A DNA stretch of 64,000 nucleotides from a bacterium. Its GTDB lineage: Bacteria > Chloroflexota > Dormibacteria > Dormibacterales > Dormibacteraceae. Below, piece after piece: positions 1-16,718 of the stretch. Location: contig SCQL01000028.1 of NCBI GenBank assembly GCA_004299235.1, positions 1-64,000 on the forward strand, given 5' to 3'. The notes below the pieces were generated by a model that was not told the DNA's origin, did no database searches, and saw only the letters and a list, made by a program, of their open reading frames with translations. The translations under genes were made by a program, and so were the position numbers. Positions within the stretch are counted from its first letter, which is position 1, and each line of letters begins with the position of its first letter.

Positions 1-714
1 GAGGACGTCGGTCAGCCGCCCGTCACGGTGCCGGATGGTCAGCGGGTAGTCGGTGACGAAGCCCTTGGCGAAGACCTGCTCATAGCCCTCGCGGGCCTTC
101 TCCGGCTCGGTGAAGTAGTCCGAGAAGTCGGTCCCGATGAGCTTCTCACGGGGCACCCCGGTCACCTTGATCGAGCCCTCGTTGACGTCGGTGATCTTAC
201 CCTCCGGGCTGATCGTGACCAGGGGGTCCAGGCTCGCCTCGATCAGGCTCCGCGCGTACTGCGAGGTGATGCGCGCCCTCTCCTCGGCGCGCTTCCGCTC
301 GGTGATGTCGCGAGCGATCGAGGACGCCCCGATGATCTTGCCGCTCGCGTCGTGGATCGGCGAGACGGTCAGCGAGATGGAGATCGCGCTTCCATCCTTC
401 TTGACCCGCACAGTCTCGTAGTGCTCCACACGGTGGCCGTCCCGGATCTCCTTGAGGATGTTGACCATCTCATCAGGCCGATCCCTGTGGATCAGGACCG
501 AGAACGGTTTGCCGATGATCTCGTCGGCTTTGTAGCCGTAGATCTTCTCGGCGGCCGGGTTCCAGCTCGTAACGACCCCTTCGAGGGTCTTGCTGACGAT
601 GGCGTCATCGGAAGAGTCGACGATGGACGCGAGCAGCCCGAGCCGCGTCTCGCCCTCCCCATTCCGCCTCTTTTCAGCCGCGGGCCGCGCGTTGTCTAGC
701 GTAGATCGTGCCAT
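1..714 (-). CDS. PAS-domain sensor protein (C-terminus beyond window)
   Basis: Reading the minus strand from the ATG at 714 gives 238 codons open to base 1, so the gene continues off the left edge. It encodes two PAS folds. The first spans about residues 26-140 (SSDDAIVSKTLEG, then WNPAAEKIYGY) and ends in a PAC-type DITERKRAEE segment; the second starts near residue 150 (SLIEASLDPLVTISPEG). An AGGAG lies 10 bases before the ATG and supports this start. PAS domains sense redox, light or ligands and normally feed a kinase, cyclase or ATPase module. That output domain is outside the window, so the function remains open. The N-terminus has no membrane segment, so it is probably cytosolic. Confidence 0.85.
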   Translation of the reverse strand, partial: MARSTLDNARPAAEKRRNGEGETRLGLLASIVDSSDDAIVSKTLEGVVTSWNPAAEKIYGYKADEIIGKPFSVLIHRDRPDEMVNILKEIRDGHRVEHYETVRVKKDGSAISISLTVSPIHDASGKIIGASSIARDITERKRAEERARITSQYARSLIEASLDPLVTISPEGKITDVNEGSIKVTGVPREKLIGTDFSDYFTEPEKAREGYEQVFAKGFVTDYPLTIRHRDGRLTDVL

Positions 715-1196
715 GCGCTCACCACTCCTGAAGAATCGGGCCGCTCTACCGGCCCAGCAGTCAGCCGACCGCCGGCCCAGGTTCCTTCTCTTGATCTACC
801 AGGCGTCGAGGTGGCGGGCCAGAGGATGCCTCCTGGGCCCAGCCGCGCGCCCGCGAGCCGCTCGACAACGAACGCTCCAGCCAGATCGTCGAAACGCATG
901 CCGAACTCCAGGGGCGGCGCCGCAAAGCCACTGATAAACGAGCCCTGAACTCGCACGCCCCGGATAGATCATGACAGCAAGGTCCGAACCCGACTGAAAA
1001 TCTTTAGTAATGACTCAATAAGTAGAATTGCAACCGAGTCGCCGCCGGGACCAGGCTTGGGCACGCGATCACAGAGGACGCGCGCGCGACGCCAAGGATC
1101 TGGGACGGGCTCCCGGCGCGGAAATCATCAGTCGGAGCGCTCGATCTGTCGACGTGCGCTTCCGAGCAAAGGGGTTCCGCTACCCTTCGTGAAGGC
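715..1196. other. Intergenic stretch; possible upstream region of the PAS gene
   Basis: No convincing gene is seen over 480 bases. A minus-strand reading frame at 696-956 has arginine/glycine-rich content typical of an antisense shadow. The only AT-rich island is about 995-1033. On the minus strand it offers TTGCAA (1033-1028) and TACTAA (1009-1004) separated by 18 bases, a weak candidate promoter for the PAS gene with a leader of nearly 300 bases. Just before the tRNA-Thr, TACCCT (1181-1186) could be its -10 element, but no good -35 is visible. Confidence 0.3.
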
Positions 1197-1272
1197 GCCG
1201 GCGTAGCTCAATTGGCAGAGCAGCTGTTTTGTAAACAGCAGGTTACAGGTTCGATTCCTGCCGCCGGCTCCA
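1197..1272 (+). tRNA. tRNA-Thr (anticodon TGT)
   Basis: A full cloverleaf can be drawn. The 7-bp acceptor stem is GCCGGCG with CGCCGGC, the D arm GCTC/GAGC, and the anticodon stem GCTGT/ACAGC with loop TTTGTAA (anticodon TGT, reading ACA). The T arm has the TTCGATT loop, with one mismatch at the base of the T stem. The discriminator is T and CCA is encoded (1270-1272). It stands alone, 50 bases upstream of the DinB gene. Confidence 0.96.
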
Positions 1273-1322
1273 ACGCGTTTTCCACCGGTGTGGGCGACAA
1301 TGCTTGAGAGGAGGTTGGTGAG

Positions 1323-1787
1323 ATGAAGGCTGAAGAGAGAACGCCACTGATCGAGCGGTACCGCGAAGGCCATCGCACCGTCATGGAGGCGCTGCAAGGC
1401 GTGACCGAGGACGAGCTCGATCACTCGGCCAGCGGCGAGTGGACCCCGCGCATGATCGTCCACCACCTTGGCGACAGCGAGATGATGTCCGCCATCCGGC
1501 TCCGCCGCCTCCTGGCCGAGGACGCACCCCTCATCCACGGTTACGACGAGGCGGCGTTCGCCGACAAGCTGACGTCGGACCGCCCGATCGAACCGTCTCT
1601 CGAGGCGATGCGATGGGCACGCGAGTCGACGGCGCAGATCCTGGAGCGGCTGACCGAGGACGACTGGCGTCGCACTGGGACGCACAGCGAAAGCGGGCCG
1701 TACTCCGTCGAGAGGTGGCTGACGATTTACGCCAAGCACGCCCACGACCACGCCCAGCAAATCAGGCGCTCGCGGGGCAAGGCGTAG
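1323..1787 (+). CDS. DinB superfamily protein
   Basis: A 154-residue protein of the DinB/YfiT-like four-helix-bundle family. These bind a metal through three histidines and include thiol-dependent transferases of uncertain substrate. Visible features are the early RYREGHRTVMEAL helix, the HHLGDSE segment that normally supplies the first metal histidine, and the C-terminal KHAHDHAQQI helix that supplies the others. A strong GGAGG lies 8 bases before the ATG. The gene is followed after 2 bases by the M20 peptidase gene and probably shares its transcript. The precise substrate cannot be told from sequence. Confidence 0.85.
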   Translation: MKAEERTPLIERYREGHRTVMEALQGVTEDELDHSASGEWTPRMIVHHLGDSEMMSAIRLRRLLAEDAPLIHGYDEAAFADKLTSDRPIEPSLEAMRWARESTAQILERLTEDDWRRTGTHSESGPYSVERWLTIYAKHAHDHAQQIRRSRGKA

Positions 1788-1789
1788 CG

Positions 1790-3178
1790 GTGGCCACGAC
1801 CCACACGTTGCTTGAGGACGCGCTGGCGCGAGCGGCAGCCGCCCGCGATACGGACCTCGCCGACCTCGTCGAGGCGCTCCGGATCCCTTCGGTGAGTACG
1901 CTGCCGGAGCGGCGCGAAGACTGCCTGCGCAACGCCCGGTGGCTCAGGGACCGTTTCGACCGGCTGGGCATGAAAACAGAAATCGTCGATGTCATGGAGG
2001 GCGGACTTCCGGTCGTCGTCGCCGAATGGACCGGTCAACCGGGCAAACCCCACCTGACGATCTACGGCCACTACGACGTCCAGCCGCCAGACCCGCTCGA
2101 CGAGTGGCAGTCGCCGCCTTTCCAGCCCGAGCTGCGCGACGGCCACATCTACGCGCGCGGCTGCGCCGACAACAAAGGCAACCACCTGGCGACGATCAAG
2201 GCGGTCGAGCATCTTTTCGCCGCCGGTGCTCCGCCGGTCAACCTGCGCTTCCTCATCGAGGGCGAGGAGGAGATCAGCGGCGAATCGCTGCCGCGATACA
2301 TCCGTGCCAGCGCATCAAAGCTCAAGACCGACGCGGTGCTCATCTGGGACAGCGGAATGGACGAGGATGGAAACCCGACCCTCGCCACCACTCTGCGCGG
2401 GCTCCTGTACGTCGAGCTCCACGCCACCGGCCCCGCCGTCGACCTTCACTCGGGCGTGTTTGGTGGCGTGGCGCCGAACCCGATCAACACGCTGGCGCGG
2501 ATTGTCGGCGAGCTGAAAGATCGCCATGGTCACATCACCATCCCCGGTTTTTACGACGCCGTCCGCAAGCCGAGCCCGGAGGAATTGGCCGATTGGAAGA
2601 AGAAGGACGCGAGATACGCCGAAACGGTGAAGCGCCTGTCGGGCGCTCGGGTTCTCGAAGGTGAAGAAGGGTTTCTCGCGATCGAGCGCACCGGCAGCCG
2701 GCCGACCCTCGACGCGAACGGCATCGTCGGGGGCTTCATCGGCGAGGGCAAGAAGACCGTGATTCCCGCACGCGCGTCCGCCAAGGTCAGCATGCGCCTG
2801 GTTCCCGACCAGGACTGGAGGACGATCCTCGCCTCGCTGGAGAAGCGTGTGCGAGAGCTGACGACGCCGGGCGTCGAAGTGAAGGTCGAGCTGCTCGGTG
2901 CAGCGCCGCCCGTGACGTGCGGCGTCGACCACGCACCCGGAAGGGCGATGCGCGCCGCCTACAAAGAGGCATTCGGCAGGGAGACGGCGCTGATCCGGAC
3001 GGGGGGTTCGATACCGGTGTCGATCGACTTTCAGGAAGCGGTCGGCGCACCGATCGTGGTCAGCGGCATCGCGCAAGCCGACTGCGCGATCCACTCACCC
3101 AATGAGCACCTGGTGATCGACAACTACCACCGTGGGATCGAGGCCGTCATCCGGTTTATCTGCCGCCTGGCCGAGTAG
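1790..3178 (+). CDS. M20 family metallopeptidase (dipeptidase-like)
   Basis: From the GTG at 1790 this is 462 residues, the usual length for M20 dipeptidases. The open frame runs further upstream but there overlaps DinB in another frame, so the GTG 2 bases after the DinB stop is preferred. Two-zinc ligands are recognisable: GHYDVQ (His94, Asp96), the GCADNKGN bridging Asp, the EGEEE general base and ligand, WDSG, and the final His in IHSPNEH. The lid/dimerisation domain lies between about residues 200 and 320. The family hydrolyses dipeptides or N-acyl amino acids in the cytosol. The closest type is the Xaa-dipeptide hydrolase/CNDP-like group; exact specificity is not determinable. Confidence 0.9.
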   Translation: MATTHTLLEDALARAAAARDTDLADLVEALRIPSVSTLPERREDCLRNARWLRDRFDRLGMKTEIVDVMEGGLPVVVAEWTGQPGKPHLTIYGHYDVQPPDPLDEWQSPPFQPELRDGHIYARGCADNKGNHLATIKAVEHLFAAGAPPVNLRFLIEGEEEISGESLPRYIRASASKLKTDAVLIWDSGMDEDGNPTLATTLRGLLYVELHATGPAVDLHSGVFGGVAPNPINTLARIVGELKDRHGHITIPGFYDAVRKPSPEELADWKKKDARYAETVKRLSGARVLEGEEGFLAIERTGSRPTLDANGIVGGFIGEGKKTVIPARASAKVSMRLVPDQDWRTILASLEKRVRELTTPGVEVKVELLGAAPPVTCGVDHAPGRAMRAAYKEAFGRETALIRTGGSIPVSIDFQEAVGAPIVVSGIAQADCAIHSPNEHLVIDNYHRGIEAVIRFICRLAE

Positions 3179-3179
3179 C

Positions 3180-3566
3180 TCAGGACTCTGTCACGGGTAG
3201 GAGCTCGAAAGTCGCCTGCTCGCCCGGCGTGAGCGGCTCGGAGGGTGTGGACGGCTCGACATAGGAGCCGTACTTCTTCCGGGCGAGCTGGGAGACCAGA
3301 CGAGCTTCGTCGGGGTCCGTCACGTGTCTGGGCTTGAACCTCACCGCCTTGCCGCCCATTAGCAGGACGCCCTCGCCTCGGGCCAGCAGGTTCTGCGGCC
3401 AGTGGCGCCCGGGACCGGCGCCTGAACGAATGAAGATTCTGCGCCCGTCCGTCGACACCCATATGGTCACGTGCTTGGGCTTGCCGCTCTGGCGCCCGAC
3501 GGTGGTGAGAACCACCTCGCGCTCGCGTGCCGCGGCCTCAAGCACGTCCTGTTTGAAGCTATGCAT
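3180..3566 (-). CDS. Nitroreductase/deazaflavin-dependent oxidoreductase family protein
   Basis: A 128-residue protein with the split-beta-barrel fold of flavin/deazaflavin-dependent oxidoreductases (FDOR, DUF385/DUF2255-like). It shows the VVLTTVGRQSGKPKHV strand-turn-strand that precedes cofactor phosphate binding, and the RSGAGPGRHWPQNLLA segment typical of the family. Relatives reduce quinones, nitro compounds or biliverdin using F420H2 or FMNH2. The assignment to a cofactor is inference. It ends 1 base from the M20 stop, so the two genes are convergent. Confidence 0.75.
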   Translation of the reverse strand: MHSFKQDVLEAAAREREVVLTTVGRQSGKPKHVTIWVSTDGRRIFIRSGAGPGRHWPQNLLARGEGVLLMGGKAVRFKPRHVTDPDEARLVSQLARKKYGSYVEPSTPSEPLTPGEQATFELLPVTES

Positions 3567-3617
3567 CTGTTGCTATGAACCGGTCGAGGACGATTTCGAT
3601 TCCCAGCTGACGGCCTG

Positions 3618-4370
3618 TCAGGTCGCCGCTTCATCCGGCAGGTCGTACCACTGAAGGCGCCGGCCGATGCGATTTCTGATGCGCCAACCCAGTGACTTGC
3701 GAGTGTCTTGAATCTTCGAGCCGAGCAGCGACAGCCGTTGATGCACCGTTCGAACATCGTGGGGATTGCTGAGAATCTCCGGCGCCAGCTTTTCGACCTG
3801 CACCAGGTTGTCGGTGACCGTGGTGTGCCAACCCCAATCCGACGCGCAAAGTGACGCGATCCGTGTGGCGTTGAGGGTCAGTGGCGTGTCCGCCCCACCC
3901 ATCTCGAAGTGGAGCAGCAGCGTCAGGGAGTCGAGGACATCCTTCCGATTCAGCTCCACGATCTGAAGTTTGAGGAGCAGGAGATCGGAGACCGGCAGGG
4001 TGAAACCGGGGGCGGCGAGCCCCGGCTCCAGGTCCAGCCGGTGGCACATCTGGAATTCGCTGACGAAGATGTCGACCTGCCGCTCGCGGATCGGATCGAT
4101 GAACAGCAGGCGCGCGTCACCATGCTGCGCGTTGAATCGCTCGTCGGCCCGGTATCCCTCTGAGACCAGAACCCGCACGGCGCGCGCTGAGTGTCGACGC
4201 GGAATGGCGAGATCGATATCGTGATACGTCCGCGCCAGCTCATCGCACGCGACCCGACCCTGGCACGCCACAGCGACCGCAACCCCGCCCAGCAGGCGCA
4301 TCGCCACCTCACGGTCGCCCGCCGATCCCACCAGGCGCCGGCCCTCGGCCACCGCATCTTCGAGGGTCAT
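3618..4370 (-). CDS. Nucleotidyltransferase-fold protein
   Basis: A 250-residue protein. The N-terminal third carries the minimal nucleotidyltransferase signature: LLGG (Gly28-Gly29) followed by HDIDLAI (Asp51 and Asp53 as metal ligands), and further on a VDIF third carboxylate strand. This matches stand-alone nucleotidyltransferase-like proteins related to the AbiEii/MNT group, some of which act as toxins or antitoxins. No partner antitoxin is adjacent. Its neighbours are a metallophosphoesterase and an FDOR protein on the same strand, 43 and 52 bases away. Function is not assignable beyond fold. Confidence 0.65.
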   Translation of the reverse strand: MTLEDAVAEGRRLVGSAGDREVAMRLLGGVAVAVACQGRVACDELARTYHDIDLAIPRRHSARAVRVLVSEGYRADERFNAQHGDARLLFIDPIRERQVDIFVSEFQMCHRLDLEPGLAAPGFTLPVSDLLLLKLQIVELNRKDVLDSLTLLLHFEMGGADTPLTLNATRIASLCASDWGWHTTVTDNLVQVEKLAPEILSNPHDVRTVHQRLSLLGSKIQDTRKSLGWRIRNRIGRRLQWYDLPDEAAT

Positions 4371-4412
4371 CCGGGTAGCTGGATGCTCAGCCAGGTGGCC
4401 CCGCCGCCCGCC

Positions 4413-5381
4413 TCACCCCTGAACAAACTGCCAGCTCTCCAACCCCTTGCTGCCAAGCTGAACCAGCACCCCACGCAGGATGCCCTCCGAATACTCGGAC
4501 CCGGGGTTGACGCACAGAGTTCTTCCAATCTTCTCGGCGCCGGCGGATTCGTGGACGTGGCCGTGCAATCCGAGCAGCGGCTGAAGTCGCTGCAGGATGC
4601 CACGAACGGCCTCGGATCCAACGGCTCCGCTGGACTGCCCGCCGAGGCCGCTCTTCGGCCGGAGCTGGTGGTCAAGCTCCGGCGCCTGATCGAGATGAGT
4701 TCCCCGTGGCGGACAGTGAAGGTTGAATACCGCCGTCGTCGGATTCTGCAACCGCGCTGCAAGGGAATCGAGCTGGCCGGCGATCTCGTTTTCCGGCAAC
4801 TCGCGCGGCGTCCTCCAGGGCGTGGGTGGTGAGTATCCGTAGGACAGCAGCTCGTAGCCGCCTGGCAACTCCTGAATCCCGTCTTCCGCATATACGATCC
4901 TCGACGACTGGCGGATGATGTCCGCCAGCTCCGGCGGATCATCATTGCCAAGCATCATGAAACAGCTCGCCTTGGTTCCCGCGAGCCGCTCGTCAGCCAG
5001 GCGAACCCACCCGATGAGCCGCTCTTCGACCGCTTTGCGAAAGGCCTTGTCGAGCGCCTCCGGGTCGGACTCCAGCGCCCGCGCGGCGTGAGGCGACAGG
5101 ATGAGGTCGTAGGAGCCGGAATCCCGGATCCGGCGCTGGAGGTCGGCAAGCTCACTCTCATTCCGGGCCCTGAGCTGTTGCCCGCCGACCTCCCCGTTCC
5201 AGCCGTCTTCGGTCTCGATCACCGCGACGACGGCCTTGCCCGTGATGTCGCCCCCCAGGATCAGGGCGTCGACGCCATACGCCGCGGCCGCGTTCAGCCA
5301 CTTCCTGAAGCACTGCTCCGAGCCATGCACGTCGCTGGCGAAGAACAGCCGCGTCCCGGCAGGGCGTCGAAGGAACCTCAC
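4413..5381 (-). CDS. Calcineurin-like metallophosphoesterase
   Basis: A 322-residue protein with all phosphoesterase blocks in order: FASDVHGS (Asp17, His19), LGGDITGK (Asp45), LGNDDP (Asn146, Asp147), NLHCPPRGT, and GLHGHVHES, followed by NPGSEYSEG. These build the two-metal active site. Family members hydrolyse phosphomono- or diesters, and the substrate here is unknown. The start codon overlaps the stop of the APC permease gene by 4 bases (ATGA), so the two are translationally coupled. A role tied to the transported solute is possible but unproven. Confidence 0.88.
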   Translation of the reverse strand: MRFLRRPAGTRLFFASDVHGSEQCFRKWLNAAAAYGVDALILGGDITGKAVVAVIETEDGWNGEVGGQQLRARNESELADLQRRIRDSGSYDLILSPHAARALESDPEALDKAFRKAVEERLIGWVRLADERLAGTKASCFMMLGNDDPPELADIIRQSSRIVYAEDGIQELPGGYELLSYGYSPPTPWRTPRELPENEIAGQLDSLAARLQNPTTAVFNLHCPPRGTHLDQAPELDHQLRPKSGLGGQSSGAVGSEAVRGILQRLQPLLGLHGHVHESAGAEKIGRTLCVNPGSEYSEGILRGVLVQLGSKGLESWQFVQG

Positions 5382-7009
5382 TCCGGCGGCAGGCTCGTGA
5401 AGGCCAGGCCAAGGTCGACTCCTCGGGCCCTGTTCGCGAAGTAGGAGATCGGCCAGATGACGATCGCGACGGCGCCGATCACGAGGGTCGCCTTGATGCC
5501 AACCGGTGAGTTGGCTCCAAGCGAGCTATTGGTCAGCAACAGGTAGAGGACGAGCCCGTAGACGATGGCCGCGGCCAAACCGAGCAGGGAGAACACCGGC
5601 ACCCCGGCCACCGACCAATTCACCGACGAAGCCTTGAACAGATGCGGCTGACGCCAGGGAAACAGGATCCCGGCGACGGCGATCACGATGAAGCTGTAAG
5701 CCTGGCCGATGGCGAGCGTATAGAGAAGCTGGGTGATCCAGGCTTGGCCGAAGACCAGGAACGCGAGGAACACGAGCCCGACCACCATCACCACGGCGTT
5801 GGCCACCAAGGGCGAGTGCGTGCGGGGATGAACTTCGCTGAACTTGGCCGGCATGACGCGATCGAATGACCAGGCGAACATGCTTCTGGTGACGATCAGA
5901 AAGCCAACGGGAAGAGTGGAGACGAGCGCCGCAATCGAGCAGATCATGAGGACCACCTGAACGACCGAGGAGTGAGACAGAAGGGAGACGAAGAGGAAGA
6001 AGGAGGATGGGCTGGCAAATGGGTAATCCTTGCTGGCCGCGTTCGACAGCGATGTCGCAGACCCCAGGAAATCAGAACCGAAGGTCTGGTCCGCCAGCGC
6101 CATCAGCACGGCTCCGAGCACGGTCCCGAGGACCAACGCTGAGACCATGCCGGTGAGCATCGTCTTGCGCGCGTTTCTGACCTCGCCACCCATGTAAGCG
6201 GTCAGGATCCCGTAGCCGAGAGCGCCGAAGGCCAGCGGGAAGGCGACGAAAGTGGCCACCGGGTCGGAGTTGGCGCCATAGCCCCCGTACCCAGCCTTGT
6301 GCGCCGTGGCGATTATCTGGGCGTAGTTGCCGCCGTATTCGGCCACCGTCTGGACGAAGTCCGATCGCCCGTGCAGCAGCAGGATCGCGATCGAGACCGC
6401 CGCGGCGACCAGTGACAGGACGAGTAGGACGATGACGACCTTGATGTAGTGCCTCAAGCTGAAGCTGAGCAATAGAGCGGTGAGCACCAGAGCGATCGCT
6501 CCGAAGGCAAACGTCCAGCCCGGAGTGGCGACGGCGCCCGCCCAGGCGATGAGGGTGTCGCTGTGAATGGAGACTCCCAATGCGGAGAGCGCGGCTGACA
6601 CCGAGAAGGGCGCGATCAACGACGCACCGTACGCGGTGGCCATCAGAATCCAGGCGACGAAGTTGAAGTTGACGGCGAAGCCCAACCATGGATGCAGGGA
6701 GCGGGTCACGTAAACGTAGTCCCCGCCCGCGCGCGGCATCACGCTTCCGAACAGCCCGTACAGCAGGATCGGGAAGAGCGCCAGGACTCCAGCGATGACC
6801 GTGCTCCAAACGATCGATCCACCCGGGAAGGCGGCCGGTTCGGTGGTGGCGACAAAAATCAGCCAGATGACGCCGATGCCGGAGATGTTCAGGGCGACGG
6901 CGCTGGGCAGCGAAATCGCCCGAACCAATCCGCTGGATTGCCGCACATACAACGTCGAACTGGCAGCGGACCCCCGCGAAGCGACCGAACTTTCGCTCTT
7001 CGAACTCAT
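5378..7009 (-). CDS. APC-family amino acid permease
   Basis: A 543-residue integral membrane protein with about 12 hydrophobic helices beginning near residue 33. The first helix carries the GIG-type unwound motif (LNISGIGVIW) of LeuT-fold APC transporters. The segment MPRAGGDYVYV matches the PRAGG(D/E)Y signature at helix 3 of amino acid/polyamine permeases. The N-terminal 30 residues are hydrophilic and Ser-rich, and the length is slightly above the usual 450-500. The likely role is proton- or cation-coupled amino acid uptake; the specific substrate is unknown. A promoter-like element lies 80-110 bases upstream. Confidence 0.92.
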   Translation of the reverse strand: MSSKSESSVASRGSAASSTLYVRQSSGLVRAISLPSAVALNISGIGVIWLIFVATTEPAAFPGGSIVWSTVIAGVLALFPILLYGLFGSVMPRAGGDYVYVTRSLHPWLGFAVNFNFVAWILMATAYGASLIAPFSVSAALSALGVSIHSDTLIAWAGAVATPGWTFAFGAIALVLTALLLSFSLRHYIKVVIVLLVLSLVAAAVSIAILLLHGRSDFVQTVAEYGGNYAQIIATAHKAGYGGYGANSDPVATFVAFPLAFGALGYGILTAYMGGEVRNARKTMLTGMVSALVLGTVLGAVLMALADQTFGSDFLGSATSLSNAASKDYPFASPSSFFLFVSLLSHSSVVQVVLMICSIAALVSTLPVGFLIVTRSMFAWSFDRVMPAKFSEVHPRTHSPLVANAVVMVVGLVFLAFLVFGQAWITQLLYTLAIGQAYSFIVIAVAGILFPWRQPHLFKASSVNWSVAGVPVFSLLGLAAAIVYGLVLYLLLTNSSLGANSPVGIKATLVIGAVAIVIWPISYFANRARGVDLGLAFTSLPPE

Positions 7010-7087
7010 GCCCTTCCTCCAGCGGTTCGTCTAATTCCGTCGCCTGGGCGGCGGACTAATTAGCACCCGACCCGGACGCGGAGCGTA

Positions 7088-7125
7088 GTGATAACACCTT
7101 GCGGTCAGGTTGACAAGTGGTCAGG
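7088..7125 (-). promoter_or_regulatory. Promoter of the APC permease gene with flanking direct repeats
   Basis: On the minus strand TTGTCA (7116-7111) and TATCAC (7093-7088) are separated by exactly 17 bases, a good housekeeping-type promoter. The heptamer CCTGACC occurs twice with a 16-base period (7125-7119 and 7109-7103), bracketing the -35 hexamer. This is the arrangement expected of a regulator binding two half-sites. The regulator is unknown. Transcription would start about 70 bases before the permease ATG. Confidence 0.5.
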
Positions 7126-7245
7126 CCATTCCTGTGAAGAGGTCATCGGGTGGCATGGAGTCGCAGCCCGACAATCTGGGGTCGACGGGGTACTCCTCAC
7201 GCACTCACCAGTTGGCGCAGGTGCGGATCACCCGCAACAAGCCGT

Positions 7246-7271
7246 CCCCGGGGCGGCTCGCCGCCCCGGGG
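7246..7271 (-). terminator. GC-rich hairpin downstream of the hydrolase gene
   Basis: A perfect 11-bp inverted repeat, CCCCGGGGCGG and its complement, around a 4-base loop. It lies 15 bases past the stop codon of the alpha/beta hydrolase gene. There is no T-tract on either side, so it is either a T-less terminator or an mRNA 3' end protector. The stem is exceptionally stable. Confidence 0.5.
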
Positions 7272-7285
7272 GGATCAGATCGCGG

Positions 7286-8131
7286 TCAGGCCTTCGCGGT
7301 CACAGGCACGGGATGGGCCGCAAAGAATCTCGTCATGGCCATCGCCGCATCTTCCGGGTTCTCGATCTGCAACAGATGACCGGCCCGGGGCAGCGTGAAG
7401 TCCTCCGTCTGAGGCAGCCTTTCGTGAATCAGCTGCGTGACTTCCGCGAAAACCGGCAGCGTGTCGGCGCCGTTGATGAGAAGGACTGGCTGAGTGATGC
7501 GCCGGCCGTCCTCTGCGTTGAATGGCCAGACCTGCAGGGCCGGCATCTCGACCTGAAAGAAAGTATCGGCCGCTCTCGCCGCCTGAGCCATGGCTCCCGG
7601 AACGACGCTTTCCATGACGTCCATCGCGTTCGGCCCGCCCACGCCCTGAAGGAAAGCCTCGGTCGCCGCGGCCTTCTCGCCCCGCCCGTAGAGCTCGATC
7701 ACCGGCGCCAGCTGGCTCATCATCACCTGACCGCCCGGAACCAGCAGGATCAGCGCCGGCTCCATCAGGACCAGGGAGTGGACGAGGTGGGGCGCGTCGA
7801 TCGCGAGCTGGAGAGCGACGGCACCCCCGAATGAGTGCCCCACCACATGGGCCCTCTCGACGCCCAACTTGCGGAGCAGAGCGGCGCAGTCCGCGGCCTG
7901 CTCGGCGATGCTCACCGTGCCCGTCGCGGGGCTGCTTCCCTCATAGCCCCGCCGGCGGTAGCGGATCAGGTGGAATCCCTTCAGCGCCGCCTGGGTCATC
8001 ACCGGCACGTAGCCATCAGTGCCCAGGCTTCCGTGAATCAGGACGACCGGCTGGCCCGAGCCCGCCTCCTCGTATTCCAGCTGGATACCGTCGACCGACG
8101 TCCGCCGCAGTGGCCGAAGTTCGGATGCCAT
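7286..8131 (-). CDS. Alpha/beta hydrolase
   Basis: A 281-residue alpha/beta-fold hydrolase with a complete catalytic set: oxyanion-hole HG in VVLIHGSLG, nucleophile Ser100 in the elbow GHSFGG, acid Asp223 in LINGADTLPVF, and His252 in PRAGHLL. A cap insertion lies between about residues 125 and 200. No signal peptide is seen, so it is cytosolic. Relatives include esterases, haloperoxidase-like enzymes and C-C hydrolases. The substrate cannot be specified. It is a single gene ending in a strong hairpin. Confidence 0.88.
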   Translation of the reverse strand: MASELRPLRRTSVDGIQLEYEEAGSGQPVVLIHGSLGTDGYVPVMTQAALKGFHLIRYRRRGYEGSSPATGTVSIAEQAADCAALLRKLGVERAHVVGHSFGGAVALQLAIDAPHLVHSLVLMEPALILLVPGGQVMMSQLAPVIELYGRGEKAAATEAFLQGVGGPNAMDVMESVVPGAMAQAARAADTFFQVEMPALQVWPFNAEDGRRITQPVLLINGADTLPVFAEVTQLIHERLPQTEDFTLPRAGHLLQIENPEDAAMAMTRFFAAHPVPVTAKA

Positions 8132-8252
8132 CTCAGCCTCCCTTGGTCAGTCGCTCTCGACTTGGCCATCCGATGCCTACGCCGTTGGACCGGCCAAGTA
8201 TGCGCCGCTCGGGACGCGATGGAAGGTGAATCTGGCGACGACCAAACACCCG

Positions 8253-8268
8253 TGGCGGAGAGGGAGAG
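8253..8268 (+). repeat. Distal att-like copy of the tRNA-Ser 3' end
   Basis: The 16 bases TGGCGGAGAGGGAGAG here are identical to 12429-12444, where they form the CCA, discriminator, acceptor 3' strand and the start of the T stem of tRNA-Ser. Sequence diverges immediately on both sides. The copy ends at the base before the stop codon (8269-8271) of the Mrr-type gene, so the gene sits directly inside the island boundary. Confidence 0.75.
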
Positions 8269-8886
8269 TTAGGCCGTTGCCGGCCGCGTGCCCTGACACT
8301 TTGGGTAGGTCGAGCAGCCCCAGAAATGCTCGCCCTCGCTCGCACCACGTCTGGCGATCCTAAGCACCATCGGGGACTCGCATCGCGGGCACACAGGAGC
8401 GCTCGCGGTTGGCCGAGGCTCAGAGGTCTGCACAGCTGCCTGGGTTCGTCTCACCTCCGCGATCATCCCGCGCAACTTGGGGCCATCGATCAGCTCCAAT
8501 CTCTTATCTAGTGCGAACGCCACTGCCTCGACTGTGAACGACCCGCTCGTCACAAAGATCGCTGCGTCTGCCTTCTCGTCGTCCAATACGCCCCACAGCT
8601 CACGCAGCGGCTGCACGCCGACATGCCGATTCTTCCAGTGCTTGCACTGAACGATGAGCCGCTCACCGGTTGCGTAGGTCAAATTCACGTCGACCCCGCC
8701 GTCTGCCATTGGGCCACCGCGCGGCACCACTGTGGCGCCCTTCCGCCGATAGAACTCCGCGATGAGTCGCTCGAACTGCCTCCAGGTGAGGCGGGCTGGG
8801 TCGTCAGTGGAATCGAAGGTCCGACGGTCGATGAACCGTCGCAAAACACCGACGATCGTGTAAGCGAGAACGAGACCGGCCAACAA
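8269..8886 (-). CDS. Membrane-anchored Mrr-type restriction endonuclease with zinc ribbon
   Basis: Counting from the TTG at 8886, the protein has 205 residues. After a hydrophobic N-terminus comes an Mrr catalytic domain: WRQFERLIAEFYRRKG, then GGVDVNL (Asp66) and QCKHWK (Gln80, Lys82), the (D)...(E/Q)xK core that cuts modified or foreign DNA. A topoisomerase-type C4 zinc ribbon follows (Cys166, Cys169, Cys191, Cys197). The frame stays open upstream to 9066 and there encodes two more strongly hydrophobic stretches (AGLIVAVLLAAFGWLAPVF and WLVWLLAGLVLAYTIVGVL). It has no ATG, GTG or TTG before the paired TTGs at 8889 and 8886. The true start may be a rare codon around 8975-9000, or the 5' end may be damaged. 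Confidence 0.8.
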   Translation of the reverse strand: MLAGLVLAYTIVGVLRRFIDRRTFDSTDDPARLTWRQFERLIAEFYRRKGATVVPRGGPMADGGVDVNLTYATGERLIVQCKHWKNRHVGVQPLRELWGVLDDEKADAAIFVTSGSFTVEAVAFALDKRLELIDGPKLRGMIAEVRRTQAAVQTSEPRPTASAPVCPRCESPMVLRIARRGASEGEHFWGCSTYPKCQGTRPATA

Positions 8887-9192
8887 CCAGACGAGCCACC
8901 TTCCGAACTGAAACCAAATCCCGGCGATGACCGAAGCTCCGGCGAATACGGGTGCCAGCCACCCGAAGGCCGCCAGCAGTACAGCGACGATTAAGCCCGC
9001 AAGCGGCGGGAGGTCCGCGAAAGGCGCCGCAACCTGCTCGAGATGGCTAGGTGACGCGGCGTAAACTCACTTCTCGACCGGGCGTGTCTCGGCCCCATTC
9101 CTCCTTCCGAAGCGTGCGCAACCGACTGGACCAATCCGAGTCCGTTATGCCGACAAAAGCGTCTGGAGGCTTGCGGCCACTAGCCACCTGCA

Positions 9193-10098
9193 TCATCCCG
9201 CCTTGCGGAAACGTTCGTAGCGCTCGGCCAAGAAATCAGTATTCGGCCGAAGGACCTTCTGGCGCGGGACCGTAATGACCTGACCATCGAATCCCTGCAA
9301 GCCAACCTTAAGCATCGGCCCGTCGACTTCGCGAAGGACGTCACCCCTAACCTCGATCTTGAGATCAGGGCGCACCCCGAGGATGTCCGCATCGAAGGCC
9401 GCGTGGTGGAGCTTGCACAGGGCCAGTCCGTTGGGAACGACCGGATCGCCAAGAGGGTGGTTGTCGGGCAAGATGTGAGCCGCGTCCAGCAGCTCCCAAT
9501 GGCGCAATCGGCACACCGCGCACGTCTTCTCGTATGCGTCCAGAACGCGGACCCTGAAGAGTGACTGGTGCAAACGCTTTGTCATCAGCGTTGCCAGATA
9601 CGCACGTCTCGGCATTTCGGCGATCGTGGCCGGGGTCTCGAAATCCGAGACGTCTTCAGTCAGGATTGTGAACGTAAGTCGGGCTGGATCGTCTCTGACA
9701 ACGTAGGCCGGCCATTCGGCGTGATAGAGCCCGGGTTGGTGTCCATGGAAGTAGACCAGCGGCACGTGTTCCGCCATCGCCCGACGCAGACCTACATTGT
9801 CAGGATGCCGGGGATCAGTACCGCGATACCGGTAATGAACTCCCTCATATGTGCGCTCGTCCTCGTACGGCCTCTCCTTGCCAGGAATCTCCGGAACCGT
9901 GGTGATGCTTAGCGGTAGCTCACAAACAGCTGGCTTGAAGATGCCTTGAGGAGCCACGAGCGGCACGCGCCGGCCGTCGAGCTGGAACCCCTGCTCGAGA
10001 ATGCGCCGAGGGAGCACCGAGCCTCCGTGCAGGGTGGTCTGCTCCCTGAGGAAGTTGAATGCCGCCACCCTCACGACGCGGTCGAGGTCGGTTCCCAC
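9193..10098 (-). CDS. HNH endonuclease (predicted restriction endonuclease, COG3440-like)
   Basis: A 301-residue protein starting at GTG 10098. Residues 1-150 form the family-specific domain (AAFNFLREQTTLHG, VPLVAPQGIFKPA, YRYRGTDPRHPDN), which in related predicted restriction enzymes probably recognises DNA. The C-terminal HNH fold has zinc cysteines Cys183 and Cys186 (CAVC), His198 (AAHILP), Asn213 and His222 (LCKLHHAAFD). It acts on DNA in the cytosol. Whether it targets modified or unmodified DNA is not visible, and no methyltransferase partner is encoded nearby. It is divergent from the RadC gene, with 91 bases between. Confidence 0.85.
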   Translation of the reverse strand: MGTDLDRVVRVAAFNFLREQTTLHGGSVLPRRILEQGFQLDGRRVPLVAPQGIFKPAVCELPLSITTVPEIPGKERPYEDERTYEGVHYRYRGTDPRHPDNVGLRRAMAEHVPLVYFHGHQPGLYHAEWPAYVVRDDPARLTFTILTEDVSDFETPATIAEMPRRAYLATLMTKRLHQSLFRVRVLDAYEKTCAVCRLRHWELLDAAHILPDNHPLGDPVVPNGLALCKLHHAAFDADILGVRPDLKIEVRGDVLREVDGPMLKVGLQGFDGQVITVPRQKVLRPNTDFLAERYERFRKAG

Positions 10099-10189
10099 TG
10101 GGCAGGAATCTTAGTGTCGAACCGGCCGCCTGGCGCTCTCTTAAAGGGCTGGGTTGGCGCCGCCCAGCCGCGTCGGGTAGCTTCCACCA

Positions 10190-10762
10190 ATGCCCGCTGC
10201 CGCCGACGACCGCCAGCTGCTCGAGGCGTTGATCGGGCGTGCGGCTCGCTTACTGCCGCTCGGACTGGCCCAGCTGCTCGAAGCCGATGATGGCGAGTTG
10301 ACGACCGTCGGGCTTTCGCGATCGGCCCGGCGACGCCTGCTCGCCTGTGCTGAGGTCGCCCGGCGGTACCAGCCAAGCACCAATCCGTCCAACCCGATCA
10401 CCGGACCGTCCCAGGCTATGGCACACCTAGGTCGGATGCGAGCGCTTGACCAGGAGACGCTGGCAGTCTTGCTGCTGGACGTCCGGCTCAGCCCAATCAG
10501 CCTTGAGATCGTTGCGATGGGTGCCGTGGCCCACGTCTCGGTCGAGGCTCGCGAAGTTTTCGCTCCCGCCTTCGCCTTGCGCGCCAGCTCATTGCTACTT
10601 GCGCACAACCACCCATCCGGAGACGCCGAACCCAGTCCTCAGGATGTCGAATTCACCCGCGCAATGGTGGAGGCCGGTCGGGTCCTGCGCGTCGAGGTGG
10701 TCGACCACCTGATAGTGACGCCCCGGAGCTATTACAGCTTCCGACGGTCAGGACGCATCTAG
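10190..10762 (+). CDS. radC: RadC/JAB-domain protein (UPF0758)
   Basis: A 190-residue protein. Residues 66-190 form the RadC JAB/MPN domain with the full JAMM metal set: Glu122 in REVFAPA, then AHNHPSGD (His139, His141, Asp145) and the downstream Ser149 and Asp152 of the SPQD turn. The N-terminal helical part is shorter and more divergent than in chromosomal RadC. The role of RadC is unsettled. It is not a confirmed repair protein, and such genes are frequent in integrative elements and defence islands, as here. It is the only island gene on the plus strand. Confidence 0.88.
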   Translation: MPAAADDRQLLEALIGRAARLLPLGLAQLLEADDGELTTVGLSRSARRRLLACAEVARRYQPSTNPSNPITGPSQAMAHLGRMRALDQETLAVLLLDVRLSPISLEIVAMGAVAHVSVEAREVFAPAFALRASSLLLAHNHPSGDAEPSPQDVEFTRAMVEAGRVLRVEVVDHLIVTPRSYYSFRRSGRI

Positions 10763-10912
10763 GAAGCTCTCACGCGCGCTGGAAGAGAAGCCTTCAACCT
10801 AACCAAAAGCGCCTTCAAGAGTCCGTGAGTGGCCGAGCAGCTTAATCTTGGATCAACAATTGATGATCGTCACCTAGATACGAAACGGCGCCGCTGTACC
10901 TCGGGGCGGCTC

Positions 10913-12067
10913 TCAGGAAGGTGAACTGCTCGGGACGCTCGCCTTTACTTGCTCAACAGCCCACTCCAGCACCTGAAAAAAACGACTTCGCCCGGCTTCG
11001 GAAGCCAGATCCGTGAGCACGATTGACGGGCGCTTTTCAATCGCATCCGACGTTAGCTGGACAGCTGGGATCTCGTTCAGCTTGCGCAGCAGCTCCTGTC
11101 GAACAATGGGATCAGTGAACGGGGGCCGTGTTCGTAAGTACTGGAAACCGATCTCGACACGACCGTATGTCCAGACGGTCGCAAGGTAGTACGAAGAGCC
11201 ACCCGCCTCCAAGATGAGTGCCATGGACCCATCTTGAGTCCCGCGTCCTCACCACACTCGGGTCACTGCTCGAGACGCCCAATGAAAGATCGCCCGAGCT
11301 GCATCAGTCGCTTCAGGACCTCGTCGCTGACTCAGGTCAGCAAAGAACGACGCCTCATCCCATTGCCGATAATCATGCGAAGACCGCGCGCGCAAATCCG
11401 CTCGCAGTCCAAGGACTCGTGGCACCAATGTGCGGCTCTTGCTGCCTTTGGCCACGAATTGCCTGATCTCGATGGCGATGACTTCAGATGGATCCATCTG
11501 GCGGTTCAGAAACTCAATAATTGTTAGGAGCTCCTGTGGTATTTGATCAGCGATAAACACCAGGCGGACCCTGCCGGCCTGTAAATTGGTCCTGGCACGC
11601 TCCCAGAAGGTTTCAGTGTCCACTTCTGGACCGAGAAAAGCCTCAAGGGCCTCATCGGGATCTACACCGTCGACCTGGCACCGCGCATCGAATCGGCTCC
11701 TGAGTACGTCTGCAGGCCAGTAGACGACCGCGTTCGCAGCGTACTCGAGCATTTGGCCGACTACCTCACGTCGTATCCGCGTATCAGTGCTTCGCTTAAC
11801 CTCCACGATCGCGGGAATCGCGTCCTGGTCAAGGAACACGTGGTCGAGGGACCAACGGTCCGAGCCGTCCGGTTCGCCAGGGACCGCCATCTCACGGGCG
11901 ATTAACAGCCATCGGCGCGGAGTCGCTGGGTCGACCTGGTCACCGGCCATGATTGTTGGATGGTTTGCGAGTAGCTCCTGAAGCACTGCCTCCGAGTCGT
12001 ATGGCTGCTCGCTCATTTCGGTCAACCGACCCGAGCCATCAATCAGGAAGACTCCGGACGCGCTCAC
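10913..12067 (-). pseudogene. PD-(D/E)XK nuclease-like protein interrupted by an in-frame TGA
   Basis: From 12067 the frame gives 272 residues with a PD-(D/E)XK-like core, RWSLDHVFLDQDAIP (Asp75) followed by IVEVKRS (Glu89, Lys91), and a helical region RREVVGQMLEYA. It then hits TGA at 11251-11249. Eight codons later the same frame continues with MALILEAGG for 103 more residues ending at 10913, including VWTYGRVEIGFQYL and a helical C-terminus. Read through, the junction is VW-stop-GRGTQDGSM, which joins smoothly. The simplest reading is a TGG to TGA nonsense change in a roughly 384-residue gene. A start ATG at 11224 could still produce the C-terminal fragment. Confidence 0.7.
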
Positions 12068-12428
12068 ACGACTACTCGGCCCTGCTGACGCGTAGAAAGA
12101 CTGGCACTCACGCGAAGGTTAGCGTCCAACAGCCGACTGATGAATGACTACCAAGTCCCAGGGGAACGCGACAGCCGCATTTGCCAGACCTGACGCCGGG
12201 CGCTTTTCGGCTGTAACCGCCAAATCCGGGGCCGTAGAAGGCCGTAGACCCATCTCCATATAAACGGGCTTTGGGAGGCGGGAGACGACGGCCTTGCCAA
12301 ACACCCAACTTTCTCCGCTGCGGCGCTTCGCCCAAACGAGGCCAGCAGCGAGTGGGTCAGTACGGTTAGGGCGGCAAGGAAGGGGTCGGACACCTCGGAC
12401 GGCGTGGCCCTCATGGTCTCGGAATGAC
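12068..12428. other. Island end without a recognisable gene
   Basis: These 360 bases lie between the nuclease pseudogene start and the 3' end of tRNA-Ser, where an integrase gene would usually sit in an intact element. All frames give short or arginine/serine-rich readings with no recombinase motif (no R..HxxR..Y pattern). Nothing supportable is seen here. It could be the eroded remains of an integration module. Confidence 0.4.
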
Positions 12429-12444
12429 TGGCGGAGAGGGAGAG
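12429..12444 (+). repeat. tRNA-proximal att-like repeat
   Basis: The second copy of TGGCGGAGAGGGAGAG, lying inside the tRNA-Ser gene. It covers the CCA end (complement of TGG), the discriminator, the whole 3' acceptor strand and the first bases of the T arm. See the matching copy at 8253-8268. Confidence 0.75.
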
Positions 12445-12519
12445 ATTCGAACTCTCGATGGGCCAGTGACCCATAACGGTTTTCGAGACCGCCGCCTTCA
12501 ACCACTCGGCCACCTCTCC
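12429..12519 (-). tRNA. tRNA-Ser (anticodon CGA)
   Basis: The minus strand reads GGAGAGGTGGCCGAGTGG, an acceptor and D arm typical of class II tRNAs. The anticodon loop is CTCGAAA (CGA, reading TCG), followed by a long variable arm (a GGGTCACTGGCCC hairpin), a T arm with TTCGAAT, the matching acceptor strand CCTCTCC, discriminator G and encoded CCA. It lies 44 bases downstream of tRNA-Asp on the same strand and probably shares its transcript. Its 3' end is the apparent integration site. Confidence 0.96.
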
Positions 12520-12563: not shown

Positions 12564-12642
12564 TGGCGGTCCCGACCGGATTCGAACCGGCGTTCTCGGC
12601 CTTGACAGGGCCGCGTGTTTGGCCAGGCTACACCACGGGACC
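12564..12642 (-). tRNA. tRNA-Asp (anticodon GTC)
   Basis: The minus strand folds with acceptor GGTCCCG/CGGGACC, D stem GTGT/ACAC, anticodon stem CGGCC/GGCCG around loop CTGTCAA (GTC), T stem GCCGG/CCGGT with loop TTCGAAT, discriminator G and encoded CCA. It is upstream of tRNA-Ser in the same orientation. TAGACT about 10 bases before its 5' end may serve as the -10. Confidence 0.95.
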
Positions 12643-12722
12643 GACGGCGGCTAAGTCTACCAGTGGCTGGAACTCGGCCAGCCCCGCCCACCGCTTCGGG
12701 CTGAGAGCCAGAACCCCGCACC

Positions 12723-12728
12723 TATAAT
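12723..12728 (+). promoter_or_regulatory. -10 element of a leaderless transcript
   Basis: A perfect TATAAT lies 9 bases before the GTG start at 12738 of the cyclic-nucleotide-binding/MinD-like gene. There is no room for a Shine-Dalgarno, so transcription would start at or within 2-3 bases of the start codon. The -35 region (around 12700-12705) is poor. Confidence 0.6.
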
Positions 12729-12737
12729 TCGTTCGGC

Positions 12738-14015
12738 GTGAGCGACACCGACCGGCTCGGAGGCGGTTCACCGGATGAACTGCGGAAGCGATTCCAGATC
12801 CTGGAGCGCGTGGCGATCTTCTTCACGCTGCCTGACAACATCCTTCATGCGCTCGCCCGACGGCTGGCGCCGGCTTCCGCCACCAAAGGCTCGGTCATCG
12901 TGCACCAGGGCGACCCCGGAGACACCATGTTCGTGGTCGAAGCCGGACGCTGCGAGGTGTTCGTCGAGGAGTCCCCGGGCCACACCATCACCATCGCGCT
13001 GATGGGGCCAGACGACTTCTTCGGCGAGATGGCGTTGATTTCTGAAGAGACCCGCACCGCCAGCGTGCGCGCGCTGGAAGACTGCCATCTGCTCACCCTC
13101 GACCGCAAGACGCTTTACGAAACCCTGCCGCCCGACTCCGACGCCATCATCGAACTGACCAAGCTCGTCGAGCAGCGCAAAGACACCCTCCCCAACCTGA
13201 TCGCCCGGGCGAGAATGGTCGCGCCCGAGCAGGCGGCCTCGACGGTCGCCGTGTACTCGCCCAAGGGTGGCTCCGGTCGCACCACGGTGGCGGTGAACCT
13301 CGCCGCCGCGCTGGGCAAGCGGTTCCCGGGCGAGGTCCTGCTCGTCGACCTGGCCCTCCCCTACAACCACGCCGCGCTCATCTCCTACCTGACCCCGACC
13401 GGCTGCCTCGCGGCGGCCAGCCAGGTGCCCCCGGCCAACTTCGAAGAGGCGGTGCTCGGAGCGATCCTCCACCACCCGGGCGGCATGATGCTCCTGCCGG
13501 GCGTGCTGCGCGCCGAGCAGGCGGACCTCATCACCGTCGACCTGGTCAATCGCGCCATGGGGATCCTGGTCAACGCGTTCCGCTACATCATCTTCGACCT
13601 CGGAGTCGCGTTCACCGACATCGTCATCAGCGTCCTCGACCACTCCCAGCGCGTGCTGGTGCTGGTCACGCCCGAGCTTTCGTCGCTGAAGGACGTGGGC
13701 GAGCTGTTGAACATCTTCACCAATGTGCTCAACATCGTCCCCGGCCGCGTCATCCTCGCGCTCAACAACAAGGTGCCGAAATCGGTGGTGAGCAAAGAGG
13801 ACGTCATCCGCACGCTCAAGCAGGACCTCGCGGTCGAGATCGACTTCGACGGGACCAAGCCCGACGAGGCGGCGGTCAAGGGCGAGATCCTCGTGCTCAC
13901 CGATCCCAAGAGCGCCATCTCGCGGGGCGCCGAGCAACTGGCTCAGCTGATCGGAGGTACGGCCGCCGCCGAAGCCAAGACGGCGAAGAAGGGTTTCAAG
14001 CTCGGGCGAGGCTGA
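12738..14015 (+). CDS. Cyclic-nucleotide-binding domain fused to MinD/CpaE-like ATPase
   Basis: A 425-residue two-domain protein. Residues about 20-140 form a cNMP-binding beta-roll, with FGEMALISEETRTASV (Glu97, Arg106) corresponding to the phosphate-binding cassette, so nucleotide binding is plausible. Residues about 168-410 are a deviant-Walker-A ATPase, with SPKGGSGRTT (174-183) and LLVDLALPYNHAAL as the second block. Relatives of the ATPase position pili, septa or plasmids as membrane-bound dimers (MinD, CpaE/TadZ). No DNA-binding domain is present, so it is not a CRP regulator. It is likely translated from a leaderless mRNA. Cargo is unknown. Confidence 0.85.
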   Translation: MSDTDRLGGGSPDELRKRFQILERVAIFFTLPDNILHALARRLAPASATKGSVIVHQGDPGDTMFVVEAGRCEVFVEESPGHTITIALMGPDDFFGEMALISEETRTASVRALEDCHLLTLDRKTLYETLPPDSDAIIELTKLVEQRKDTLPNLIARARMVAPEQAASTVAVYSPKGGSGRTTVAVNLAAALGKRFPGEVLLVDLALPYNHAALISYLTPTGCLAAASQVPPANFEEAVLGAILHHPGGMMLLPGVLRAEQADLITVDLVNRAMGILVNAFRYIIFDLGVAFTDIVISVLDHSQRVLVLVTPELSSLKDVGELLNIFTNVLNIVPGRVILALNNKVPKSVVSKEDVIRTLKQDLAVEIDFDGTKPDEAAVKGEILVLTDPKSAISRGAEQLAQLIGGTAAAEAKTAKKGFKLGRG

Positions 14016-14575: not shown

Positions 14576-15085
14576 ATGGGGTTCCTCCGCTCCAGGCGCT
14601 TTCGTGAGGCTGTGCTGCTGACCGTCGGCGTCGTCACGCCGGTGGGCATCCTCGCCGTGAACTTTTCCGCTTTCGTGATGTTGCATCTCGCCGAGTTCCG
14701 CGTCGGCATCGCCGCCTGTGCCCTGCTGAGCGGCCTGGTGCTCAACGGCCTGACGGCATGGTGGCTGCTTCGACTCGCCAGCCGGAACGCACCCCCGCTC
14801 TTCCGTGAGTACCGGCTCTGGGCGATCGGCGCCGCGGTGCTGATCGTGCTCCTGACCGCGGCCGGCGGCGGCTACCTGACCTACCTCGGAATGCGGGACC
14901 CGCGCCGCCTGCCGGATTCGCTGTCCGTGGTCGTCGCCTCGTTCATGCTCCTGCTGCCGTTGGCGGTGACCTTCGCCGGTCGCAAGATGGCCGGCATGGG
15001 CGGCATCATCCCGGTCGACGAACCGGCGGCAAAAGAGAAGAGCCCCCCGCACCGGCGAGGGGCTCGTTTGGGTCGCTCTTCTTAG
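14576..15085 (+). CDS. Small four-helix membrane protein, unknown function
   Basis: A 169-residue protein with hydrophobic segments at about 13-35, 43-64, 81-103 and 116-134 and a short hydrophilic tail. I do not recognise a family. It starts 3 bases after the terminator T-tract, so it is probably leaderless with the -10 inside that tract. Its last 15 codons (KSPPHRRGARLG) lie over the inverted repeat that terminates groEL from the other strand, so the tail sequence may be dictated by that hairpin. It converges on groL with 10 bases between the stop codons. Confidence 0.6.
   Translation: MGFLRSRRFREAVLLTVGVVTPVGILAVNFSAFVMLHLAEFRVGIAACALLSGLVLNGLTAWWLLRLASRNAPPLFREYRLWAIGAAVLIVLLTAAGGGYLTYLGMRDPRRLPDSLSVVVASFMLLLPLAVTFAGRKMAGMGGIIPVDEPAAKEKSPPHRRGARLGRSS
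15031..15065 (-). terminator. groEL terminator, inside the convergent gene
   Basis: On the minus strand GAGCCCC pairs with GGGGCTC (15065-15059 with 15046-15040) and is followed by TTCTCTTTT. Just before it, overlapping the groL stop, AGGTC-TTCG-GACCT (15097-15084) forms an extra-stable UUCG tetraloop hairpin. Both lie downstream of groL; the terminator falls within the last codons of the plus-strand membrane protein gene. Confidence 0.8.
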
Positions 15086-15095
15086 GTCCGAAGAC

Positions 15096-16718
<1,623 letters not shown>

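Follow-up and report, generated by a model that had tools for sequence, protein, structure and literature searches.

A probable deletion-shrunken remnant of a tRNA-Ser(CGA)-specific integrative element in a Dormibacteraceae genome

The island at tRNA-Ser(CGA) and its genes

Analysis of contig SCQL01000028.1 from a Dormibacteraceae bacterium (assembly GCA_004299235.1; the whole 64,000-nucleotide stretch, positions 1 to 64,000, is called the window here) revealed an island of 4.2 kb at 8253–12428, with an intact tRNA-Ser(CGA) gene at one end and, at the other, a displaced 3′ fragment of that gene in the same orientation. The tRNA gene, which is the integration target, was placed by ARAGORN at 12429–12519 on the minus strand, and 12429–12431 are therefore the complement of CCA. 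The 16 bases TGGCGGAGAGGGAGAG occur exactly and in the same orientation at 12429–12444, the intact copy, and at 8253–8268 (plus strand), the distal boundary of the island, where the last base directly precedes the stop codon (8269–8271) of an Mrr gene. The positions and orientation of the two copies, the assignment of the second to the tRNA 3′ end including CCA, and the extent of the match from the first base of the CCA complement to the base before the Mrr stop codon all agree with the first-pass annotation of this DNA.

No other match was found when the window was scanned with up to two mismatches (shuffle expectation 0.09) or when the 2,873,252-base assembly was searched with up to one. Frequent occurrence elsewhere, which the annotation had named as evidence against an integrated island, was not seen in this genome-wide search. 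Under an order-3 Markov model, an exact match is expected ~2.7e-6 times in the 12.4 kb on the island side of the tRNA gene and ~2.8e-5 times over the 64 kb on both strands, in keeping with the earlier view that a chance match is very unlikely. In view of the genome-wide uniqueness and the Markov expectation, a chance origin of the repeat was rejected. Searches with three consensus sequences showed no further displaced copy above control between 1.2 and 12.4 kb of the window, except the one at 8253.

The gene next to the distal boundary encodes an Mrr-type restriction endonuclease with Mrr_cat and zinc ribbon domains (8269–9066, minus strand; Pfam PF04471, E=4e-28, and PF01396). The protein is 64% identical to that of the related genome G015 and 73% to that of G020, and the gene is the distal-end gene in both. 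Its frame is open to 9066 with homology along the whole frame, and there is no ATG, GTG or TTG before 8886. It is followed by an HNH endonuclease gene (HNH_2; 9193–10098, minus strand; PF13391; PADLOC HNH, E=4e-20), which is 81% identical in amino acids to G020:C38:15650-16552 and was found in 20 of 110 genomes. The C-terminal part of its product resembles phosphorothioate-DNA restriction enzymes, scoring 61.5 bits with NF045808, under the curated cut-off of 180. A gene for a RadC-like JAB-domain protein (10190–10762, plus strand; PF04002, E=5e-34; 63% amino acid identity to G020:C38:14978-15544) forms a divergent pair with the HNH gene, likewise in G020.

A nuclease-like candidate defence gene (PDC-S11-like; PADLOC PDC-S11, E=7e-9) occupies 10913–12067 on the minus strand and was present in four of the 110 genomes, the window's own and three others. 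It has an in-frame TGA at 11249–11251. The segments 11249–12067 and 10913–11224 are in the same frame, split by this single TGA, and are probably one broken gene; with the TGA read as tryptophan, as a search device only, the product matched no Pfam or NCBIfam family. Just before the tRNA gene, a GHKL (HATPase_c_3) ATPase gene is represented by a stop-containing fragment (12307–12405, plus strand), whose 33 codons show 70% identity over 33 amino acids to a GHKL protein of G036 and 78% nucleotide identity over 102 bp. It occupies the spot where the integrase gene begins in intact elements.

Domain and recombinase searches found no recombinase domain within 8269–12428, as had been noted before, and the island contains no recombination or transfer genes. 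We describe it as a remnant of a tRNA-integrated island and not as such an island, because an integrase, a feature of active islands, is absent inside it. Its composition was compared, as the annotation had proposed, with that of 238 overlapping, island-sized windows to the right of it. The island deviates in both GC content (61.3%, against 67.2 ± 1.6% in the controls, minimum 64.4%) and tetranucleotide correlation (0.29, against 0.70 ± 0.04, minimum 0.60). Foreign composition and a patchy distribution of genes, both typical of genomic islands, are therefore present.

An integration hotspot and its integrase-bearing elements

The variable interval around the island is framed by two conserved anchors. 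The left one (1197–3566, plus strand) consists of tRNA-Thr(TGT) and an M20 peptidase gene (1197–3178), with a DUF2255 gene (3180–3566) that is less widely kept; the right one (12564–14015, plus strand) consists of tRNA-Asp and a cyclic-nucleotide-binding/MinD-like gene with 90–96% amino acid identity in >20 relatives. All relatives are metagenome-assembled drafts. In every relative whose contig reaches that point (~25), the DNA alignment to the window ends at the tRNA-Ser 3′ end (12426–12431), and the gene content between the anchors varies strongly among genomes. Judged from these sequence comparisons, tRNA-Ser(CGA) serves as a hotspot of integration throughout this Dormibacterota family.

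Displaced copies of the tRNA-Ser 3′ end, in the same orientation as in the window, were found at tRNA-Ser(CGA) in G010, G017, G018, G020, G031, and G036. Shorter or altered copies were found in G009, G015, and G023, the last of which additionally has a full-length one at C1:13635. Relatives with related genes at this place have a displaced copy too, so that the same genes without the repeat, the other observation that the annotation had set against its reading, were not encountered. Two pairs of genomes display empty and occupied sites. A CF_140 contig and G036 are 87.6% identical over 485 bp to the junction base, where the former continues into the intact tRNA gene and the latter into a displaced copy 2.2 kb from its own tRNA gene. 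In the second pair, from the same genus, G002 and G015 are 94% identical to the tRNA boundary, and G015 has an additional 2.6 kb including an Mrr gene. That the 16 bp match is a coincidence or an unrelated duplication beside ordinary chromosomal genes appears extremely improbable to us: the repeat is short and an exact empty site is lacking among the available genomes, but the expectation is ~3e-6, the hotspot is seen in all relatives, displaced copies stand at this tRNA in several of them, and the genes are patchy, as the counts for the nuclease (4/110) and HNH (20/110) genes indicate.

The first-pass annotation had attributed the repeat to tyrosine-recombinase integration at a tRNA, and this was borne out by G010 and G020, in which a recombinase lies beside tRNA-Ser and displaced copies mark the ends of the elements. 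In G010 the intact tyrosine recombinase (P0002, 353 amino acids) starts 92 bp from the tRNA-Ser 3′ end, and the displaced copy is 28.5 kb away from the tRNA gene. In G020, where the recombinase also lies 92 bp from the tRNA, its gene is divided over two contigs, C18, which carries the tRNA gene, and C38; their overlap of 25 bp is consistent with adjacency without being proof of it. The G020 element is probably a full-size version of ~52 kb over these two contigs. On C38 the order is RadC (14978–15544), HNH (15650–16552), Mrr (50449–51225), and the displaced tRNA-Ser copy from 51477. The three genes lie between the integrase and this copy, with Mrr as the last gene before it, and their order and orientation are identical to those in the window, at protein identities of 63%, 81%, and 73%; orthology between the elements rests on this range of 63–81%.

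The integrase, the distal end, and a region that contains a helix-turn-helix gene and a type IV coupling-protein-like gene are common to G010 and G020 at 81–93% nucleotide identity. Among the other cargo genes of G020 are a DNA methylase/Mrr fusion, a second HNH gene, SIR2 and HerA-like genes, and catabolic genes. The SIR2-like gene adjoins the HerA-like gene at G020:C38:46213-49123, and pairing of these two types of genes is known from anti-phage systems.

The displaced copies at G010:C28:8538, G020:C38:51477, and G023:C1:13635 each span 59 positions, with CCA at one end and TTTTCGAG, in the anticodon loop, at the other; that of G010 has a differing variable-arm stretch inside. Past TTTTCGAG, all three continue into related element-specific arms. 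This places the strand exchange in the anticodon loop. The island of the window has no tRNA-adjacent integrase, no 59-position fragment, and no related arm, and has only cargo genes in common with the G010/G020 family. The view of the 16-mer as the footprint of tyrosine-recombinase integration can thus be refined: the tRNA 3′ end is duplicated, but the distal copy is probably a truncated form of the 59-position fragment and not a whole attachment (att) core.

A tRNA-Ser-type recombinase has also left traces outside the island. The interval 3567–8252, with nucleotidyltransferase-like, metallophosphoesterase, amino-acid permease, and alpha/beta hydrolase genes, is an older variable layer of the hotspot. 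Its genes are absent from the relatives at this place, and its tetranucleotide correlation is 0.49, against 0.70 in the controls. The left boundary given for the island holds for the repeat at 8253, but the variable interval continues left to ~3567. At 7172–7261 (minus strand), in this layer and 1 kb outside the island, lies a remnant of a tyrosine recombinase covering about residues 133–162 and containing a TGA; the statement that no recombinase is present is therefore correct for the island itself but not for its flank. The remnant has 85.5% and 75.8% nucleotide identity to the tRNA-Ser integrases of G010 and G020, respectively, and no real match to tRNA-Sec or tRNA-Leu recombinase homologues.

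Small units at the same tRNA point to a different origin that has to be considered. Units of 0.3–3.4 kb with no integrase and with displaced copies of 6–29 bp identity were found in G015, G017, G018, G031, and G036; a distal end of 56–66 bp is common to four of these, and in G015 a 1.7 kb unit has Mrr alone next to the displaced copy. The island might accordingly be one small integrase-less unit, or two to three accreted ones, inserted in trans by crossover in the acceptor end, with the 16 bp as the real core and never 50 kb in size. However, the G020 element, which bears an integrase, contains both Mrr and HNH–RadC in matching order, the interval between Mrr and HNH retains no inner displaced copy, and the junction at 8253 lacks the common distal-end sequence of the small units. 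We consider such an origin unlikely, although it is the strongest competitor.

Several further observations concern this hotspot and similar ones. In G036:C244, between 2694 and 6970, displaced tRNA-Ser ends lie at 2694, 4748, 6102, and 6580, with the tRNA gene at 6970; three are clear copies, that at 4748 being the fourth, and the smallest unit (390 bp) is common to G018. These four ends are a stack of insertions. CCA is not encoded in the tRNA-Ser(CGA) genes of G017, G018, G026, G027, G028, G031, G034, G035, and G036 and is encoded in the others; this state may track element turnover, because insertions replace the tRNA 3′ end. The sequence TGGCGGGGTGTCGTAGACACTTTTCGAACT was considered as a general element end and rejected: seven of the 110 genomes contain it, frequently close to tRNA-Ser, but some of the copies abut a transposase-like gene at its 3′ end. 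Within the genome of the window itself, tRNA-Ser(GCT) and tRNA-Ser(TGA) each adjoin, at their 3′ ends, a near-identical transposase-like gene remnant ending in GATGTCTTGAGACAGGACA (L209, G000:C29, ~9213; L210, the end of G000:C24). A remnant of this type also precedes odd displaced copies in G016 and G019. In G019:C80, 4978–8136, three TGGCGGGGTGTCGTGGATACTTTTCGAACT-like copies ~760 bp apart lie downstream of tRNA-Ser(GCT) and separate a cupin-like gene, a VapB/PIN (VapBC-like) pair, and a methyltransferase/cupin-like pair; no integrase was seen in this array.

Origin and decay of the island

The reading of the locus as a tRNA-integrated island is supported by the sequence comparisons, and we consider it likely that 8253–12428 is a deletion-shrunken, decaying remnant, similar to a cis-mobilisable element (CIME), of a tRNA-Ser(CGA)-specific integrative element. 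The ancestor would have carried the tyrosine recombinase for its own integration, and strands would have been exchanged within the tRNA-Ser anticodon loop; the incoming element would have supplied a new tRNA 3′ half, and the old half would have been displaced to the far end. With a G020-like ancestor, the deletion between Mrr and HNH would have amounted to ~34 kb, with ~150 bp left. The putative deletion junction (9044–9192) lies between the collinear BLASTN blocks 8303–9043 and 9193–10755, which are ~34 kb apart in G020. The integrase end would have been lost, with a gene fragment in its place, and so would the inner part (~43 bp) of the distal att fragment, which would have shrunk from 59 to 16 bp abutting the Mrr stop codon. 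The leftover would be restriction and putative defence cargo, namely Mrr, HNH–RadC, and the broken PDC-S11-like nuclease gene, and should no longer move alone. The island would be the youngest recognisable layer in the insertion stack at this tRNA.

Signs of decay are the in-frame TGA, the missing Mrr start codon, the GHKL fragment, and the integrase fragment at 7172–7261. We infer the deletion history, the immobility, and the defence role of the cargo from these comparisons, the last from the protein families only. The first-pass annotation had left it open whether the element depends on another one for mobility or is decayed. The absence of an integrase, the interrupted nuclease gene, and the fragments favour decay, and a Ser-type integrase that could act in trans was not found in the window's own genome, where only a tRNA-Sec homologue (57%) and a broken tRNA-Leu one were present. 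The remnant is predicted not to be excisable by the known integrase of the family, because the exchange region and the arm are missing.

The exact 16 bp tRNA end kept at both boundaries would also fit a still functional CIME, excisable by a later-arriving Ser-specific integrase. This is very improbable, since the exchange lies in the anticodon loop, the distal remnant lacks both the anticodon-loop part and the arm next to it, arm sequences of the GAATTC type are absent near both ends, and the nearest integrase in the genome is the tRNA-Sec one and not of the Ser type.

Several points weigh against the remnant interpretation. The 7.3–8.25 kb flank was found in no relative, either by a search with the alpha/beta hydrolase or by BLASTN of window positions 1–12429 against the relatives and 32 named Dormibacterota-type contigs; no close relative carries this left flank, and an exact empty site at 8252 was accordingly not seen. 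Only 16 bp of the displaced copy are left, against 59 in the relatives, and the truncation would itself be part of the proposed history; a different recombinase exchanging in the acceptor end would leave a short repeat too. The assembly of the G020 element from two contigs relies on the 25 bp overlap, and the two halves of its integrase are 91% and 99% identical to that of G010. The PDC-S11-like nuclease and the GHKL fragment are not in the G020 element. Finally, the 1.7 kb unit of G015 has Mrr alone at its distal end, so that separate accretion of small units is possible.

The origin and target range of the integrases were also considered. A viral source was rejected, with no relative of the integrase among 2.9 million viral contigs. 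Recombinases at least ~44% identical to P0002 with an adjoining tRNA (L033, L076, L095, L096, L097, L098, and L103) lie within ~150 bp of class II tRNAs only, namely Ser, Sec, Leu(CAA), and Tyr. This suggests, from few cases, that P0002-like recombinases prefer tRNAs with long variable arms. A broader scheme, in which Dormibacterota tRNA-Ser is a platform for integrase-less cassettes that are stacked integron-like and inserted in trans by class II-tRNA recombinases, with the island as one unit, appears improbable. For comparison within the same genome, an apparently complete 4.2 kb element was seen at tRNA-Pro (L099, G000:C3:6000-24000, ~7900–12200); it encodes a tyrosine recombinase of its own, and its displaced tRNA copy is 50 bp long with one mismatch.

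Comparison with known systems and significance

Genomic islands flanked by a tRNA gene on one side and its displaced fragment on the other, tandem arrays included, are standard (PMC4383910). The Islander class described there is similar to our case in its intact tRNA gene with a displaced 3′ fragment in the same orientation, in its tandem arrays, and in the tyrosine integrase, which is found in the intact relatives of the window. Unlike the island of the window, which has no integrase, Islander requires one inside.

CIMEs are deletion derivatives of 1.2–13 kb that keep att sites and lack recombination genes, and gene-less microCIMEs of 130–220 bp are also known (PMC7563491). The island is similar to CIMEs in its boundary repeats, its lack of recombination genes, and its size, which is within that range, and its putative derivation by deletion from a larger integrative element would be a further similarity; the stacking of gene-poor 0.3–0.5 kb units at the hotspot in the relatives resembles that of microCIMEs. 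It differs from CIMEs in its probably truncated distal att site. As to the parent relation, three genes are collinear with G020, where a coupling-protein-like gene was found and relaxase and mating genes were searched only in part. Strict membership is not claimed here, because functional att sites are doubtful (16 of 59 positions) and the parent is only a candidate for a conjugative or mobilisable element. In Streptococcus salivarius the most decayed units are farthest from the target (PMC7563491), whereas the decayed unit of the window adjoins the tRNA gene.

Dehalococcoides, from a related host phylum, carries serial ssrA islands with repeats of the RNA gene end and a serine recombinase (PMC3146451). 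Both systems have serial direct repeats of the 3′ end of an RNA gene, with some islands without integration genes. However, a Ccr-like serine recombinase acts at tmRNA in Dehalococcoides, whereas a tyrosine recombinase is found at tRNA-Ser in the relatives of the window. The island works like the remains of such known elements.

No paper on integrative elements of Dormibacterota was found in the literature searches made. Our analysis points to a family of tRNA-Ser-specific integrative elements in this soil phylum that comprises decayed as well as probable full-size members and has cargo rich in restriction and defence genes. The island offers a worked case of how an element of ~50 kb may shrink to a 4 kb islet with a 16 bp footprint, an islet that standard island finders would miss because they require an integrase.

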